Assembly (NCBI GenBank): GCA_034190875.2
Contig: CM067354.1
Location: 43,567,275 to 43,631,274 of the forward strand
Length of the DNA: 64,000 nt
Reading direction: 5' to 3'
Source of the DNA: Urechis unicinctus
Lineage: Eukaryota; Annelida; Polychaeta; Xenopneusta; Urechidae
Each line of letters starts with the position of its first letter. Position 1 is the stretch's first letter. Below the pieces are notes generated by a model. That model was not told the origin of the DNA. It was given only the letters and a program-made list of their open reading frames with translations, and searched no databases. The translations under genes were made by a program, and so were the position numbers. This document shows positions 30,754 to 38,773 of this stretch, piece after piece.

Positions 30754-33006
30754 TCAGTAAATGAAACCAAGAAGAAGGCGACATAATGGCCGAGGAAGAG
30801 ACATATTCTGTAATTTACGAGCCGATCGTCCTGCGAGCTCGTTGTATACATACGTCCCGGTGATATGACGTAAAGATGGGGGATTATGAATCAAGTCAGT
30901 CAGAAATTTTAACAATTTCGAATGAAGACTCAAACGATGAAATTTCAGGAAATATTTGATAGCTAGAATGGCTTCATTGTGGTCAGTATTGGTGTAGTGA
31001 ATATGGAAGAGATCAGTCAATGACTGCCGGCGCTCGCTCTCGAATTCCACTTCTAGAGTTTTGAGCACGTACAACAATGGGTGAAAAGCATACGATTCTG
31101 GGTCGTTGCGTTCAGGCAAACACGTGAAATGTATCACTGGGCCAGTGGATGGATTGGCTCCATGGTGAAGCATAAGAATCGTGCCTTCCACGATAAGAGA
31201 CATAGGTAGAAGATGCAAAGAGTCTGGACGCAAAAGATTGTAGCAAAGTGCATGTATATCACTGGTAATTGCCCGACATTTGTTAGCCTGGTACCCGCAT
31301 TCAAGAAGGCAGTGCAACACAGCTAAAATCTGGCGAACAAATTCTGTTGCCAATTCACAACGTTGTAACTCAAAATGCCCGTCACTTAACTGGTCAATTT
31401 CTTCGATGTTATTTATCGCAGTGTGTAAGAGACATTCCGATTCACCATTTGGAGAAACAAAACGACATCCATGTTTTTTTAATAGCGTCAGGCATCCGAT
31501 GAACCAGTTGACTTGACGCCGGTAAGGGACTTTGAACCTGGCATCTCGCGAAGGCAGGTGGAACAAACGGGAACACCCATACTTAACGAGCAGACTGACA
31601 ACTGACGTGTTAACATTGCTGACCAGGTTAGGGTTCGCTCCGTGTTTCAGCAACAAAAGAAGCATTTCATATATGAGATGAAACGACACAGGAGGTGACA
31701 CACCGGGGCATATCCTTGAAGCTCGAACCAACATCAGTAAGCTCGTATCCCCCACTTTGTTGGAAATGTTGGGATTTGCCCCCGCTTCCAATAGCAGTCT
31801 CAAACATTGAATATAGGCCATTTCTTCAGGGTGTAAAGCCTCTGTTTCCGAATATGATTCATTTCCATGCACCGGAAATTGTTCATCAAATTGACTAGTA
31901 TCGCGCAGAAAACCAGCCGCTTTAAGCCTCCTAGGCTGGTGTATGTCTTGCACAGCGGACGAGTCAACAATAGGAGGTTTGGTGGCAAGACGCTTGAGCA
32001 ACATGTTGAGGACGGAGTTGCCGCAATTGGCCACGGCATTCACTTTTATCCTGAGGCCGCATTCCAATAGAAATGCCGTAGTTTCTGCGAGGCACGCGTT
32101 CGAGTCCGCCTGGTTGAATAAAATATGAAGCAGCGTTTCGTTATAATCGTTGTTTACCATTAAAGACGCTCCGTTTAATACCAGACACTCTATGAAGGAT
32201 CTCCCCCATTGTACTGCCTGTTGGATAGGGTATCCGTCTTTATCCAATACATGAAGCGCTTTGGGTGTGAGTTTTAGAAATAATTTCACACAATTTAGCG
32301 ATCCGAGACAACAGGCGACGTGCAGCGGTTGTGATCGAGTCATGAGGCGAGTCACATCGTGTTGCCATAGCAACGAGACGCAGTCTGTGTTGTCAGAAGC
32401 AATGGCGTAGTAAATTAAGCCCTCGAAGAGATATTTATGGTCAGCGTGGTAGAGATCCCCTACACACGCGCTGGACCAATGCTTTCCTTCTTCAGTGTAA
32501 ACAGCATTACAGTCCAAGTGATCGTCCGGATAACATACAGACGATATCACATCCGGATCGGCACCGTAATCCAACAACATTTGCAAGATCTCGGTATGAC
32601 CCAACTTGGCGGCTAAATGCAACGGTCGTCCACACATCGGTGCATTCAAGTCCGCTCCATGACAGACTAAATACTTGACTATGCCAAGGCTATTACTCAT
32701 TATAGCATATTGAAGTAATGAGTAACCACTTAAATCGCGCAGGTTAATGGAAGCTGCCATATTTGGGCTACCTGATAATATCTCCGCCAATTCCCGCACG
32801 GGACCCAAATCCTGAATCAACTCCCTCGCCTTACTAGCGATGTCTGAAACTCTAGTCCAGATGTCGGGGTTTTCATTCAGTGGACCGAAGTCGGAGGCGT
32901 ATTTTTCCTGGTAAGTTGATTGGTGACATTCACTTCCTCGGTATCGTTGCGATAATTCGCGGACCAAGTTGAGAGACGCTCGGGTAAATTTCGCCACGAA
33001 CTGCAT
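30754..33006 (-). CDS. Ankyrin-repeat and SOCS-box (ASB-type) protein
   Basis: One uninterrupted coding exon of 750 codons. I set the start at the ATG at 33006-33004. The frame is open a little further, but a very good acceptor (TTCTTATTTGTTTCAG|AGG, exon start 33021) lies 15 bases upstream, so there must be a separate 5' UTR exon. Residues of about 90-165 form two clear ankyrin repeats (LVCHGADLNAPMCGRPLHLA, LLDYGADPDV), and more degenerate repeats follow (LLLEAGANPNISN, LLLKHGANPNLVS, MLHHGANPS). The last 40 residues form a SOCS box: a BC-box (PPSLRHITGTYVYNEL) and a Cul5-box-like LPRPLCRLLL. ASB proteins bind Elongin B/C and Cullin-5 and present substrates for ubiquitylation. At 750 residues it is longer than most ASB proteins, and I cannot assign it to a numbered subfamily. 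Confidence 0.85.
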   Translation of the reverse strand: MQFVAKFTRASLNLVRELSQRYRGSECHQSTYQEKYASDFGPLNENPDIWTRVSDIASKARELIQDLGPVRELAEILSGSPNMAASINLRDLSGYSLLQYAIMSNSLGIVKYLVCHGADLNAPMCGRPLHLAAKLGHTEILQMLLDYGADPDVISSVCYPDDHLDCNAVYTEEGKHWSSACVGDLYHADHKYLFEGLIYYAIASDNTDCVSLLWQHDVTRLMTRSQPLHVACCLGSLNCVKLFLKLTPKALHVLDKDGYPIQQAVQWGRSFIECLVLNGASLMVNNDYNETLLHILFNQADSNACLAETTAFLLECGLRIKVNAVANCGNSVLNMLLKRLATKPPIVDSSAVQDIHQPRRLKAAGFLRDTSQFDEQFPVHGNESYSETEALHPEEMAYIQCLRLLLEAGANPNISNKVGDTSLLMLVRASRICPGVSPPVSFHLIYEMLLLLLKHGANPNLVSNVNTSVVSLLVKYGCSRLFHLPSRDARFKVPYRRQVNWFIGCLTLLKKHGCRFVSPNGESECLLHTAINNIEEIDQLSDGHFELQRCELATEFVRQILAVLHCLLECGYQANKCRAITSDIHALCYNLLRPDSLHLLPMSLIVEGTILMLHHGANPSTGPVIHFTCLPERNDPESYAFHPLLYVLKTLEVEFESERRQSLTDLFHIHYTNTDHNEAILAIKYFLKFHRLSLHSKLLKFLTDLIHNPPSLRHITGTYVYNELAGRSARKLQNMSLPRPLCRLLLGFIY

Positions 33007-33020
33007 CTTGATATGTTTCC

Positions 33021-33592
33021 TCTGAAACAAATAAGAACATTCGACACAAAATCATATATAGGTTGTGTTTGAGGTTCCAACAAAGAGCTTTTATCCACGC
33101 TAAGAAAGCTCACACTGGACAAAAATGTGTACAAGACACCTGTGGCACAGGCTGTGCGGAGCACACTGCTCGCAAAAGTTAACGTCTATTTACTTAAAAA
33201 TTTCTGGTTTATTTAGAGGCACGGTCGCCTTGATCAATAAGATGTCGATATTTCTACAACATTAGCCACAATGTGTCAATCCCACAGAAGTTGGATTAAC
33301 TGTCCCATGTCTTTTGTTTGATTTTATGGTCGCGCCTCTTGACGATAGGCGTGGTGGAATGCTCACCGCATAGTGAGCCCTCCAAGCTTTAAGCTCTTTG
33401 GTTGTAAAATTACACCAGAACTTAGTTGGACCTTGATGATTTTCTTCCAGCATTATCACACAAGCATCATAGATGTTATCATAAGAGGGATGTCATTGTG
33501 AGGAAATGCAATATGGGCGATAGGAGGGAAAGAAACTTAGCCTCCAGCCAAGTCAGTGGTTTTTACTTCTCCCAATCTCTCATGTCCGCGCG
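33021..33592. other. Upstream flank of the ASB-like gene
   Basis: Should contain the 5' UTR exon or promoter of the ASB-like gene, but I cannot place the first exon. No coding feature is seen. Confidence 0.35.
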
Positions 33593-34380
33593 TAGCTCCG
33601 GTGTAACGGTAACATGAATTTATACCGTTACGAAGAGTTCGTCAAACACAGTCGGCAAGTTCTCGTTTGGGTTGAAGGACTACTCTACGTACCTAGAAAA
33701 TAACATATATCAAGAGCCTTTACAAAAAATAGACTTTGCGCGCCAAAAAACTTACCACCACTCGACGCTATTCTTCAATAAATGGCATCGATAGTTCGTT
33801 TCCTAACAAATCGCGATACGATGTCTGCCATTTTGGAAACAATTAATTCTCGCGATTTCCCGAGCTCATTTCCCGCATTGCCTTAGCATCCCAAGTGGGG
33901 GGCACTTACCCTAACTCGGATAGGGGTGTGCCGCGGGACCTCGAAAACCTGTACCCGTTGTACTCGTTGAGAATGAGAAAAAGTATACTCCATCGTACAA
34001 GGTATTATGCGAATGTCTAACCCGTCGTAAAAGTCGAGATGTTGAAAAAAAAAACCCCTTCGTGCGGCACATGTATACTATATCTTTACACTTAAGTGCC
34101 CCCGCCCCCGCGCAATGCATGTGGTCTTGAACTTGTAAACAAACATGTTGCTGTGTTTCTGACTTTTTACCGCTTCCCAAATTGATCGAACTATAAATAA
34201 TTACCACGGATGAAATCACCAGCCGAAAAGGGATGAAATTGTCCGTAAAACATCATTGCATTCTATAACTCCATCACTTGTGTACGTTTGGTGTTTGGTA
34301 GTTGTCTGAATCGATCTAAAAATAATTGAGTTGCGTTGTTTCGAGAAACGGTAAGACGTCTTGTAGGGCTAGTCCGCGCG
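33584..34380 (+). mobile_element. 779 bp transposable element with 9 bp target-site duplication
   Basis: The element proper is 33593-34371. It is bounded by the direct repeat GTCCGCGCG at 33584-33592 and 34372-34380, a 9 bp target-site duplication. It begins TAGCTCCGGTGTAACGGTAA and ends AGACGTCTTGTAGGGCTA. The terminal inverted match is only about 4 bp (TAGC/GCTA). No transposase frame is visible, so it is non-autonomous. The same two ends occur fused in a 54 bp copy at 37959-38012. A 9 bp duplication fits Mutator-like, Merlin or Rehavkus superfamilies, but I cannot classify it further. Another inverted-repeat element (33898-34103) is nested inside. Confidence 0.85.
33898..34103 (-). mobile_element. 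Nested MITE, GGGGGCACTTA family, copy A
   Basis: The 206 bp segment is bounded by inverted GGGGGCACTTA ends. Read on the minus strand it aligns along its whole length with the copy at 36744-36938: both have GTATACATGTG near one end, ACGGGTACAGGTTTT in the middle, and GGCACACCCCTA near the other end. It has no coding capacity. Confidence 0.8.
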
Positions 34381-36454
34381 GTATATATAAGATCGTCAAC
34401 CATCAGATACGAAGCTACATGCGTACATCGGTGCCAGTACTTACAATTAGTTGAAAGAGACGGTTGTAACAAATTATCATGAATAGTGATAGACAATAAT
34501 GATTGAAAGACGTGGTCCCTTAAACTTGAAAGGTAATTATGTCTTATATGCAGAAAATAATACAATGGAATGAGATATCACCCTACAAGCATTCACGTAT
34601 TTTTCACTGGACACTGTGTTCGCTTTGAGAAGCGTGCTGATGTCCCAAACGATTGGGCGACGTTATGATTCACACAGAGTTGTACAGGGCAGTTTCCTTC
34701 AAGTCAGTGACTGGCACGGTGGGCGGTTATCAGTAGGCGCCATTCTCGTTATACAGGGCTTAATAAACGATAAGCCCACAAGACATTGCCATTATGATTG
34801 TCTTATTAATTGTAATTATCATTTATATTATTTGTTCTGATAGGACAGTGTTCAAATGCAAAACGGAACAATATGGTAACAAGCAAATACCATATTTATG
34901 AATGAAAGTGCTTGTCTTAGGGCAAATGTTTCGAAAGCGGGGTCTTATGCCTACCTCCCAAAATCACTTTGTAACTAATATTTCAAAAAGTAAATAGATC
35001 AACCGATAAATATTTCTTAATATGTTGATAAAAGGTAAATTCAGCTTTTTCTCTGATACACATATTTCAGATAAGTTGTTTTCATGAGCATTGTCGAGAC
35101 ATTTGACATTTTCCTGTCATGTATTATTCCCCTAATAATTTCCATAGAAGTGGACCACGCAACTTCGGAGTAAGCTCAATAATAAATGGAAGCAACACAG
35201 GTTAAACTACCTCAGTAAATACAGTGGGAACATTAAAGCAATATGTACTTGAAAACCAGGTTCACTAATGGTGGCTTTTATATAGAATCTTCTCACCCAA
35301 CCGGCATACTGCTGAGCAATACCATATAAAGTCAATACCAAATATATAACTCAAGTCAGTGAACTGGAAATCGGCACGAGTTAGCAGTCATCTTGTCCAA
35401 AATGCTAAATATGGTCCTTTCATTGTGAAATTGAATGACACTGACGCAATGTATTATGTTGTTTCAATAACAACTATTTGAGAATTATGACATAGAAACA
35501 AATATTACGGCAGATGATGCTTTTTTGATAAATCACTGCTTAATCCACGATGGGACTGGTTGATAGGGGCCTGATGTGTTTGGACTGGGGAAAACAGAGC
35601 ACTTGCGTCTGCAGTCAATAGAATAGGTCTTCAGATGTAACCAAGGAATAAAGATGCATGCACTAATGAGTGATTGCTTGGTAAGGGGTCTTCAAAGCAA
35701 GTGTGTGGAGGTACTGAGTGAGTAAAAGTCCTGGGCTGGAGAAATTGTTCCTGGGTAAATAGAAACTCAGAGAGACAAAAAGGTTATAGCTAGGCAAAGA
35801 AACTCCGCCGCTGACAGCTCTGCACCATTTAATACTTTAGATCTCTCACATCCGAGCTGTAGAGGCGAAGAGCCGCCTGGGATAAAAACTTACCAAAGCC
35901 CTCCAAGCAAAAAAATTTGTGACAAAATGCAAGATTATATCACAAAATGACACGAGGACTGTTTCTAATACTACATTTTTGTCTACTTGTTCTGCTTGAG
36001 CACTAGAATATGGCACATCATGAAACTTTGTTCAAAAACTCAACATGGCCGACTCCCACAATGCAACATAATTGGGTTAATTCTCGTTCATGTTTTCGAT
36101 TTGCGCGGTAGCCATGTTGGACAACAATTTTAAAATTGTGTTGGACTTCGTTGATTTTGTTGATTAAGGAGTACGACTGTTGTTGGACTCTAGGCAAGAT
36201 TGATGGTAAGACATTTATGGATATGAAAATCTATGTTTTTTAAACTGTCCCTTGTCTGCATTGTGAGAAGGAGCAAATTTGCTTATAACGCTCAAGATTC
36301 TGCATACGGACCCTCGCCCCTAAGGTGGCATCAGATCATCAAAACACCAGGGGTGAGTTGCCTTGCCTAGGTTGTAGCATAATCTGCTCATAGGTCTGTT
36401 TCTCGTGTCTTGAATGAAGAAAGGGCTGCAACACCCCTTCCTGCCTCTAGCCGC
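34381..36454. other. Intergenic, no gene found
   Basis: About 2 kb of AT-rich sequence with only short random frames. Confidence 0.5.
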
Positions 36455-36487
36455 GCACGACGGTAATATAAATATATACCGTCGTGC
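36455..36487. repeat. Perfect 11 bp hairpin
   Basis: GCACGACGGTA and its exact complement TACCGTCGTGC are separated by 11 AT-only bases. The GGTA...TACC core resembles the inner palindrome of the 779 bp element (TAACGGTA...TACCGTTA at 33604-33631), so it may be a relative. Confidence 0.8.
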
Positions 36488-36743
36488 CTGAAAGTATGTG
36501 GGTCGTGTGGCGTGCCCGGGGCTTCCCACCAAGTTGTGTACTTACGTAAATATATATGTCGACAAATGAGATGAATATCCGCTTAACCGGACTGTTTTGG
36601 TATCCACTGTCTCGTGATTATTTAGCAATTGTCAAATGAACTTTTAGAAATACAACTTTCTTTCACGGCAGCCCCAGTTTTGGAGATATGACGTCACATT
36701 ACGCAGTTTTATTTTCACTCGCCATGTGGCAGCAGGTCCCAGG

Positions 36744-36938
36744 GGAGGGGGCACTTAAGTATATAGAGGCAGTATACATGTGTCGGGGTAGGTTTTTTTT
36801 GGCCTCCCGACGGGTTTTGTTGACCTCATAATTGTAGGATGGGGTATGCTCTTGCCATTTTTACCTTGTATGACGGGTACAGGTTTTTTGAGATCCCGGG
36901 GCACACCCCTACGCAGGACAAGGCCAAGTGCCCCCTCC
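36744..36938 (+). mobile_element. MITE, GGGGGCACTT family, copy B
   Basis: The 195 bp segment has perfect 13 bp terminal inverted repeats, GGAGGGGGCACTT and its complement. The interior matches copy A at 33898-34103 in opposite orientation. No obvious target-site duplication was found. A lone GGGGGCACTTA end also occurs at 39820-39830. Confidence 0.82.
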
Positions 36939-37625
36939 AGACTGCGGGAATCAAAAGTGTTATCTTTTTTAAATGTCAATGTGATATCGTTGAATACATA
37001 TCGCCCTTCAAAGTAGATATTTCCAAAAGTTAATCATTGACAAAATGACACATATACTTAAATAATAAAATTCAGAAAGAAAAAGTTCGCTAGCAAAGAA
37101 CCTTGTCTGCGCATGCGCGCAGAAACCGATCTTGTCGTTCAAAATAAACATGAACTTTTCAGAATTTGTGTGGCCGGATTAAATTGCCTTTGACGAAATC
37201 TCACACGTAAACTAACTCAACTTGTTAATAAACATTCAATTATGTGAAAAATTATTCTTCATATGTACATGTCTGTAATAATAATCGTGTATAATTGGAA
37301 CTCATGTATTGTCGCACCGCATTTGGTTACGATCATCGCACGACGTCAATAAGACGTCATGCACGGCTATCCTGCCTCCAGACCATAGCGCATGACTATC
37401 ATTTTCGTACCACCAATAATGCATAAAGATGAAAATTTTAGGAAGATAACGTTGATTTTACCTGCTTCACATGAGAGAAGAGTTAAAATATGTTTATAGC
37501 ATGAACTTGCTGAGACCTAGCAGATTAAACTGAACGAACTTGATGACCATATCAACATGGTAAATACCAGCCAAAGGGCTACTAGTCAGAGTGACACGTC
37601 GGCGAAGGGCTGTAACCTGGTAACT

Positions 37626-37777
37626 ACCATCTGAACCAGATGGTAACCAACACTGACAACGGTTCTCATATTTAATGAACAGAACAGATTGGAGGCGCAA
37701 CCATCTGAACCATTGGTATGGTAACCAACACTGACAACGGTTCTCATATTTAATGAACAGAACAGATTGGAGGCGCA
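37626..37777 (+). repeat. Tandem duplication, 74 bp and 78 bp
   Basis: The unit ACCATCTGAACC...GGAGGCGCA occurs at 37626-37699 and again at 37700-37777. The copies are almost identical apart from a small insertion (about 5 bp) in the second, so the duplication is recent. Confidence 0.93.
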
Positions 37778-37949
37778 ATTGCTAGTTTGAAAACATTGCA
37801 AAACAAAGTGATTCAATAAACGTTCAATGAGGCTTATGATCCATGATCCACATGATTTACTCAGGTGTACCACTTACTGCGCGCCAGTTGAAAACGGACA
37901 AGACTGAAACCGGAAGTAACAGATTTATTTTGGAACGTCGACAAGTCAG

Positions 37950-38021
37950 CCGTATCATTAGCTCCGGTGTAACGGTAACATGAATTTATACCGCAGACGT
38001 CTTGTAGGGCTACCGTATCAT
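37950..38021 (+). mobile_element. 54 bp miniature derivative of the 779 bp element
   Basis: The insert 37959-38012 is flanked by the 9 bp direct repeat CCGTATCAT (37950-37958 and 38013-38021). Its first 35 bases equal the left end of the element at 33593, and its last 18 or so equal the right end finishing at 34371. The different target duplication shows that it is an independent insertion, not a duplicated fragment. Confidence 0.88.
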
Positions 38022-38096
38022 CAGCCGTATCATATGAAAAATACATCAGTAGCCAGCACGTAGGCCGGGTAGTCGTTATCTCACATAGCAGTTTGT

Positions 38097-38361
38097 GATT
38101 CGTATCAGAAGGTAGGTTGAAGATAGAAATATATATATATTTATCGATCTATTACCCCCGATAGATCGTAGAACGAAGAGAGAAAGATTTATATAATCGA
38201 TCTTACGATCCCTCTACTACTAAAGTGTTTTTTTAGTAGTTGCGGGATCGTAAGATCGATTATATAAATCTTTCTCTCTTCGTTCTACGATCTATCGGGG
38301 GTCATAGATCGATAAATATATATATATATTTCTATCTTCAACCTACCTTCTGATACGAATC
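38097..38361. mobile_element. 265 bp near-perfect palindrome (foldback element)
   Basis: The arms begin GATTCGTATCAGAAGGTAGG and end with its complement. They are about 125 bases each and differ only by one TA unit and a few substitutions near the centre. The loop is T-rich (around 38224-38236). TGTGATT occurs on both sides (38094-38100, 38364-38370) and may be a target duplication partly merged with the arm. There is no coding capacity. RNA from either strand would fold into a long hairpin. Confidence 0.9.
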
Positions 38362-38773
38362 CCTGTGATTTGGGGTAGCACTGAGTTTCGTCTCAAGTGC
38401 ATCACTTCATATCAAATATATATTGCCCATTCGCACCACAAGTAGTATCAATAGTTTCATAGTTATTATCATGGACATCATATCATCTGTCATCACAGAT
38501 AAAAACTCACCAGAGTATTTTTTATCTCGAAAATTCGTAAATATACTGACGTAGCGAGGAAATGTAGATACTGGGCCGAAATAAAATGGACCAAATCTGT
38601 CATTTCTGCGTTCCTATTAAGTAAAATATATTTCTTTTAAGAAAATAAAACCCAAAACTTTTTTTTAAGTGAATGCGAAAACATTATTTGAAAATATTTG
38701 TCACAACCCTCAAACTATCGATTAAGCGCAAAATGACAATTGGATAGTCAGGTTACAGCGGAAGTTTATAGTT
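38362..38773. other. Upstream flank of PCLAF
   Basis: AT-rich, with no coding feature. It separates the palindrome from the PCLAF promoter. Confidence 0.4.

Follow-up and report, generated by a model that had tools for sequence, protein, structure and literature searches.

A 64,000-nucleotide stretch of the Urechis unicinctus genome (GenBank assembly GCA_034190875.2, contig CM067354.1, positions 43,567,275 to 43,631,274; hereafter the window) contains a 779-bp non-coding transposon, element A, and a 54-bp insert composed almost entirely of the two ends of A. The insert is one of several hundred such tiny copies, or stubs, which belong to two families, A and C, and are found across the 1.19-Gb assembly (926 contigs). 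The stub series probably arose by insertion of longer, gene-less copies that subsequently lost their interior, an event repeated many times over. Accordingly, the 54-bp insert is best read as the remnant of a longer A copy that lost its interior at the same site. The unusual part is the scale of this deletion series and its hairpin limit, not the existence of deleted copies.

The two inserts of family A in the window are organised as follows.

33584-33592, no strand: left target duplication of element A, GTCCGCGCG (sequence read and tetramer-pair scan)
33593-34371, plus strand: element A, 779 bp, non-coding, ends TAGC...GCTA (97.9% identity to the majority of 37 copies)
33603-33631, plus strand: left terminal hairpin of A, stem GTAACGGTA/TACCGTTAC, element positions 11-39 (DNA folds)
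34354-34371, plus strand: right end of A, AGACGTCTTGTAGGGCTA (comparison with the majority sequence by eye)
34372-34380, no strand: right target duplication of A, GTCCGCGCG (sequence read and scan)
37950-37958, no strand: left target duplication of the 54-bp stub, CCGTATCAT (sequence read and scan)
37959-38012, plus strand: the 54-bp stub, 35 left-end bases and 19 right-end bases of A (sequence comparison)
37992-37995, plus strand: deletion junction of the stub, ...TATACCG/CAGACG... (comparison with the family right end)
38013-38021, no strand: right target duplication of the stub, CCGTATCAT (sequence read and scan)

An earlier note on this DNA had described both inserts as flanked by perfect 9-bp duplications and had taken them for two separate insertions. 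The sequence read and the scan confirm the duplications, and the separate origin of the two insertions is supported. The note had also equated the 54-mer with the first 35 and the last 18 or so bases of the 779-bp element, which is correct: the two agree over the first 35 and the last 18 bases. At position 19 from the right the 54-mer has C, as does the family majority (...ACGCAGACGTCTTGTAGGGCTA) but not the window copy of A. The match stops at 18 right-end bases because the 779-bp copy itself has lost 12 bp of the usual AGACGTCTACGCAGACGTCT inverted repeat at its right end (majority comparison, by eye). The family right end is CGCAGACG, so that CG is common to both sides of the 54-mer junction and constitutes a microhomology. 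The identical 54-mer is present with 9/9 duplications at two further sites (L051 and L064).

In the window scan, TAGC...GCTA pairs were tested for identical 9-mers outside, with all 256 tetramer pairs as a yardstick. Matches amount to 26 in 3.24 million pairs overall, 3 in 4,826 for TAGC and 4 in 8,903 for TCTA. The scan by itself is therefore only suggestive, and the reality of the element is settled by its genome-wide copies.

The 35-base left end of A occurs in 634 exact copies in the genome and a CGT/CAT variant of it in 286, with none for the reversed control in either case; both counts include stubs. The main copy at 38 loci carries a perfect 9-bp duplication in 34 cases, an 8/9 duplication in one and none in two, and one has no right end. 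Duplication lengths of 4-12 were tried at these loci, and one of the 34 nine-bp cases also matches at 4. The proposal of a transposon family with 9-bp duplications is thus borne out. The 37 copies compared are 94.2-98.6% identical to their majority sequence. On contig C1, the right end lies at 752-823 bp in 29 of 30 loci with an exact left end and was not found for the remaining one, revealing a gap in copy size. Forty CGT/CAT loci were also sampled, with the known tiny ones excluded and 166 bases read of each. One is 132 bp long with a 9/9 duplication, one is 49 bp long with an 8/9 duplication, one is a degraded stub, two (L135 and L148) look internally rearranged by eye, and 35 extend past 166 bases. 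At L143, a 105-bp candidate with an 8/9 match was put down to chance. The expected right end is present in seven of nine long CGT/CAT loci checked, and in all seven the 9 bases ahead of the left end are repeated directly after the right end.

A is therefore a non-autonomous element resembling a miniature inverted-repeat transposable element (MITE), with a fixed 9-bp duplication, many dispersed near-identical copies and no coding capacity. The longest open reading frame inside A encodes 102 aa and has no Pfam match above the cut-off, and an Rfam search of 33000-38500 returned nothing above the gathering score. A has no terminal inverted repeats longer than 10 bp. As the earlier note had remarked, the inverted match is limited to about TAGC/GCTA at the extreme ends; the hairpins lie just inside.

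The second family, represented in the window by element C, was absent from the earlier note. Its duplication is perfect (9/9).

36439-36447, no strand: left target duplication of element C, TCCTGCCTC (scan)
36448-37369, plus strand: element C, 922 bp, TAGC...GCTA, related ends TAGCCGCGCACGACGGTAATAT.../...AAGACGTCATGCACGGCTA (scan, end comparison)
36455-36487, plus strand: left terminal hairpin of C (fold)
37338-37362, plus strand: right terminal hairpin of C (fold)
37370-37378, no strand: right target duplication of C, TCCTGCCTC (scan)

A and C share the design of their ends, namely TAGC...GCTA, a left hairpin and a right end of the form AGACGTCwTGyAsGGCTA. The left hairpin is GTAACGGTA-loop-TACCGTTAC in A and is longer in C. 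Clear hairpins are predicted by folding for the left end of A and for both ends of C. The right end of the window copy of A gives no clear hairpin; the majority A right end, read by eye, forms the inverted repeat AGACGTCT-ACGC-AGACGTCT. The DNA fold of A as a whole element is not clearly better than that of shuffles (z -1.0).

Stubs of A with a size of about 52-63 bp number 55 genome-wide (reversed-pattern control 0), of which 34 carry a 9/9 and five an 8/9 duplication. Two pairs among them share flanks and are counted as one insertion each, so that the independent 9/9 sites number 32. Stubs of intermediate size yield 210 matches (control 1), and at least 73 of the 100 listed are stubs; 13 of the 20 examined have a 9/9 duplication (three share one flank) and two more have 8/9. 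A further 43 stubs are 20-37 bp long (control 0), two of them repeating places in the intermediate-size set; among 20 examined, the duplication is perfect in 13 and matches at 8 or more positions in 15. The shortest stub with a 9/9 duplication measures 25 bp, and a 22-bp stub has 8/9. Family C contributes 256 matches (control 0), and 12 of 20 examined have a 9/9 duplication, with two more at 8/9. Across both families, the 9-bp duplication is perfect in 72 of 115 stubs examined. The genome search for the ends that the earlier note had proposed thus yields hundreds of tiny copies, many of them with duplications among those examined; a full-length copy with a transposase was not found in the pairs examined. 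At L082, a tiny A stub with the duplication GCGCGAGGC encloses a 47-bp C stub, which has a separate duplication, CGTTCGACC.

The junctions of A stubs are diverse, with 97 distinct strings counted, 72 of them filler-free. The strings comprise ten of sixteen distinct ones from the 52-63-bp set, 73 of 100 listed from the intermediate set (27 were left out, 21 beginning with the long-copy right end AACGGTAAGACG and six unclear) and 33 of 43 from the 20-37-bp set (ten neighbouring-copy repeats and mutated strings were left out). At the filler-free junctions, microhomology of 0, 1, 2 and 3 or more bp is present in 14, 27, 16 and 15 cases. Simulation with uniform break points and identical scoring (left 19-36, right 12-30; some 20-37-bp stubs retain less) gives 51, 33, 11 and 5%, respectively (chi-square 59.6, p 7e-13). 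Retained lengths are ambiguous by the extent of the microhomology. One junction, ATAC/GTCTTG, recurs with the left variants GT, CGT, CAT and TAT and with five duplications, one shifted by a base.

The retained ends have sharp upper limits. The 55 larger A stubs keep 35 (25 stubs), 36 (28), 37 (1) or 40 (1) nt on the left, although the pattern permitted up to 49. Genome-wide searches with exact GT/CGT/CAT-line sequences gave no match for left retention of at least 41 nt or for right retention of at least 33 nt. The inner hairpin edges are located at 39 on the left and at about 30 on the right. The lack of matches for longer retained ends places the break points almost always inside the terminal hairpins.

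Insertion follows an apparent target preference, which was derived from 112 flank contexts with perfect duplications, deduplicated by flank; three duplication sequences recur (4, 3 and 2 times). With neighbouring positions as the only yardstick, the flanks show C at -3 (76%), A/T at -2 (82%), A/T at +2 (75%), G at +3 (58%) and C at +4 (49%). The pattern is alike in stubs and long copies, with C at -3 in 50 of 62 and 34 of 45, respectively. The resulting motif, GCWN-9-NWGC, is fitted by the element ends, GCTA-9-TAGC, so that a duplication beside a copy becomes a good target again. This likeness may explain tandem insertions that share one duplication, some of which involve a further element of the window, D, also absent from the earlier note.

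35791-36369, plus strand: element D, 579 bp, TAGG...CCTA, ends TAGGCAAAG...CCTTGCCTA (short relatives at L071 and L091)
33921-34108, plus strand: core of A, matching 36742-36911 of C at 70% identity in opposite orientation (sequence comparison)

The duplication of D matches at 8/9 positions (GGTTATAGC at 35782-35790 and GGTTGTAGC at 36370-36378). D relatives of 95 bp (L091) and 118 bp (L071) adjoin A stubs with the duplication in common, and two A stubs are arranged likewise at L051. At L098, an 817-bp A adjoins a 52-bp stub within a satellite. Unequal exchange is another possible source of the arrangements at L051 and L098. At both L098 and L013, a 52-bp stub lies in a satellite of roughly 30 bp and has been multiplied with the array, the empty units of which show the undoubled target. 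Three short stubs lie within about 200-250 bp at G000:C17:5462586-5462793 and at C11:44617490-44617736, as if seeding tandem arrays. The common core of A and C, about 190 bp in opposite orientation, is bounded by GGGGGCACTT/AAGTGCCCCC and is possibly an older element carried inside both. Elsewhere in the window, a minus-strand open frame of 758 aa with ankyrin repeats occupies 30754-33030 (Pfam Ank_2, 1.2e-24).

The origin of the stubs by loss of the interior from longer copies, one of two possibilities raised by the earlier note, is favoured by the lack of a size floor (stubs as short as 25 and 22 bp keep 9/9 and 8/9 duplications, respectively), by the same junction on differing backgrounds, by the diverse microhomology junctions and by the upper limit on retained ends. 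The other possibility was a mobile tiny form that would define nearly minimal sequences for transposition. A minimal mobile unit would be expected to impose a size floor, and none is seen, which leaves the minimal-sequence part unsupported; one 52-bp form may nevertheless be mobile. In the mechanism we propose, A and C are MITE-like non-coding DNA transposons moved in trans by a putative DDE transposase that generates 9-bp target duplications. An element would be excised from its site, with the sister or homologue serving as template for gap filling. DNA synthesis, starting from both flanks, would stall once inside the terminal hairpins, and the short products of the two sides would be joined by microhomology-mediated end joining, an aborted gap repair. 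A few stub sequences may later have moved again. A single mobile origin of all tiny copies is rejected, as the 97 junction strings are too diverse, and a strictly deletion-only origin is not fully accepted in view of the 52-bp class.

Several observations weigh against interior loss as the general explanation. The 9/9 duplication is missing in 43 of the 115 examined stubs, some of which have 8/9 or are off by a base while others have none, and 25 of the 97 distinct A junction strings contain filler or mismatch. The searches for longer retained ends both cover exact GT/CGT/CAT-line sequences only. The hairpin limit is not absolute, as illustrated by the 132-bp remnant with its 9/9 duplication and by rows of 77-120 bp, some of them composite. 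Gap repair in other systems leaves broader size ranges. No transposase was linked to the element in the comparison of MULE matches with end positions. In addition, the very same 52-bp sequence, in every case with the CAT left end, is present at five sites that each have a different duplication, which resembles stub amplification.

The last observation belongs to a rival explanation, in which the tiny form itself is a mobile element of 52-61 bp that inserted many times, the window 54-mer being one such insertion. We regard this as possible but doubtful. Besides the 52-bp sequence, stubs of 61, 59 and 54 bp are each identical at three sites with different duplications, and the C stub inside an A stub carries a duplication of its own. 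The junction of the 52-mer occurs eight times genome-wide, seven times with the CAT left end and once rearranged, despite GT left ends being far commoner (634 versus 286 for CGT and CAT combined; Fisher p 0.01, post hoc and for the fetched set). Shared parentage explains part of this link between left variant and junction: among six CAT long copies with the right end read, four carry TCTACTGACG and two carry TCTACTCAG. Furthermore, most tiny sequences flanked by 9/9 duplications are singletons (39 of 47 distinct ones); eight are present at more than one site. Stubs of 25 bp, which lack any hairpin, are likewise found at three sites, each with its own duplication; repeated joining at one microhomology accounts better for this recurrence. 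On balance, mobility of some stubs is less likely than not. If 52-61-bp stubs do move, the full transposition signals would lie within about 36 + 16-27 bp.

The main rival is a deep staggered excision, in which the first-strand cut lies at the element edge and the cut in the opposite strand about 36 nt (left) or 29 nt (right) farther in; the donor site would keep the outer ends, which would then be trimmed and joined. The model accounts for the sharp upper limits on retained length. The 132-bp remnant exceeds these limits, and P elements, on which the analogy is based, have 8-bp duplications. The limits also match the inner hairpin edges (39 and about 30), a coincidence that the model does not need. 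We consider it unlikely, even with the precedent of a shallower 17-nt stagger in the P element, the transposase of which is described as cutting 17 bp inside a 31-bp repeat (PMC7776569). An improbable alternative is loss of the interior with no transposase involved, either through slippage during replication or through cruciforms at the terminal hairpins being opened by a nuclease. Break points do lie in hairpin arms and loops, and the hairpin families A and C have produced hundreds of stubs while the D pattern gives one, a raw count not normalised to D copy number. Slippage between hairpins that differ in sequence and are 700-900 bp apart is itself unlikely. Interior loss by aborted repair remains the preferred origin of the series. 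A joint scenario, in which hairpins limit repair or cutting, some 52-61-bp stubs are mobile, and target choice by the transposase favours sites like the element ends, so that an inserted copy restores a target at its side and collects tandem insertions with one duplication in common, is conceivable but would be held with little confidence.

For DNA transposons, the record of internal deletion usually consists of a few derivatives. A single genome with several hundred stubs in two families is enough to read repair rules, such as hairpin limits and microhomology, directly, and constitutes a natural record of transposon breakage and rejoining. The stubs are short enough to escape repeat annotation or to pass for random indels. 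Tandem insertions with a common duplication would find a simple explanation in the likeness of the target motif to the element ends.

A transposase was sought through the MULE domain (PF10551), for which 150 matches were scored among 354 candidates genome-wide, two of them in open frames of more than 2000 aa. Comparison of the 150 matches with 233 listed end positions gives nine pairs within 30 kb, with 1.8 expected under a uniform distribution. Two pairs on contig C3 resemble 9-kb elements, yet the 241 bases read of each match the start of an ordinary long copy, and a MULE piece on C14 lies outside a complete copy (L005). No MULE gene was found between the listed ends among the pairs examined. 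A search for left ends with another continuation gave no match, the pattern excluding continuations that start with A. The duplication length fits either of two groups, Mutator-like elements or AcademH, but no superfamily is assigned, because no gene was found between the ends in what was checked. The literature search returned no paper recognised as describing the A family.

Mutator-like duplications are mostly 9 bp. The 9-bp duplication of A and C also falls within the range of 4-10 bp given for IS256/MuDR (PMC10045372). Many non-coding copies, and MULE domains abundant in the genome, are further points of likeness to MuDR, and deletion derivatives of MuDR have been attributed to interrupted repair (Hsia and Schnable 1996, cited in PMC10288884). 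Unlike MuDR, A has a 4-bp terminal inverted match, terminal hairpins and stubs of about 22-63 bp. AcademH, reported in animals with duplications of 9 or 10 bp (PMC10045372), is similar to A and C in duplication length.

The stubs also invite comparison with the P element. P elements generate 8-bp duplications, in contrast to the 9 bp of A and C, and their donor sites keep end pieces, a likeness to the stubs. A deep cut inside the ends is another likeness, the P-element transposase being described as cutting 17 nt inside ends with 31-bp inverted repeats (PMC7776569). A differs from P in such repeats, and its stubs retain up to 36 and 29 nt, with the limit set at hairpins. MITEs formed by abortive gap repair are usually hundreds of bp long and then amplify. 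Mariner MITEs in aphids are described as derived by this route (PMC5490172), and the A stubs resemble them as short non-autonomous copies that keep both ends. The A series is distinguished by reaching down to about 22 bp and by the predominance of singletons, which make up 39 of the 47 distinct tiny sequences with perfect duplications.

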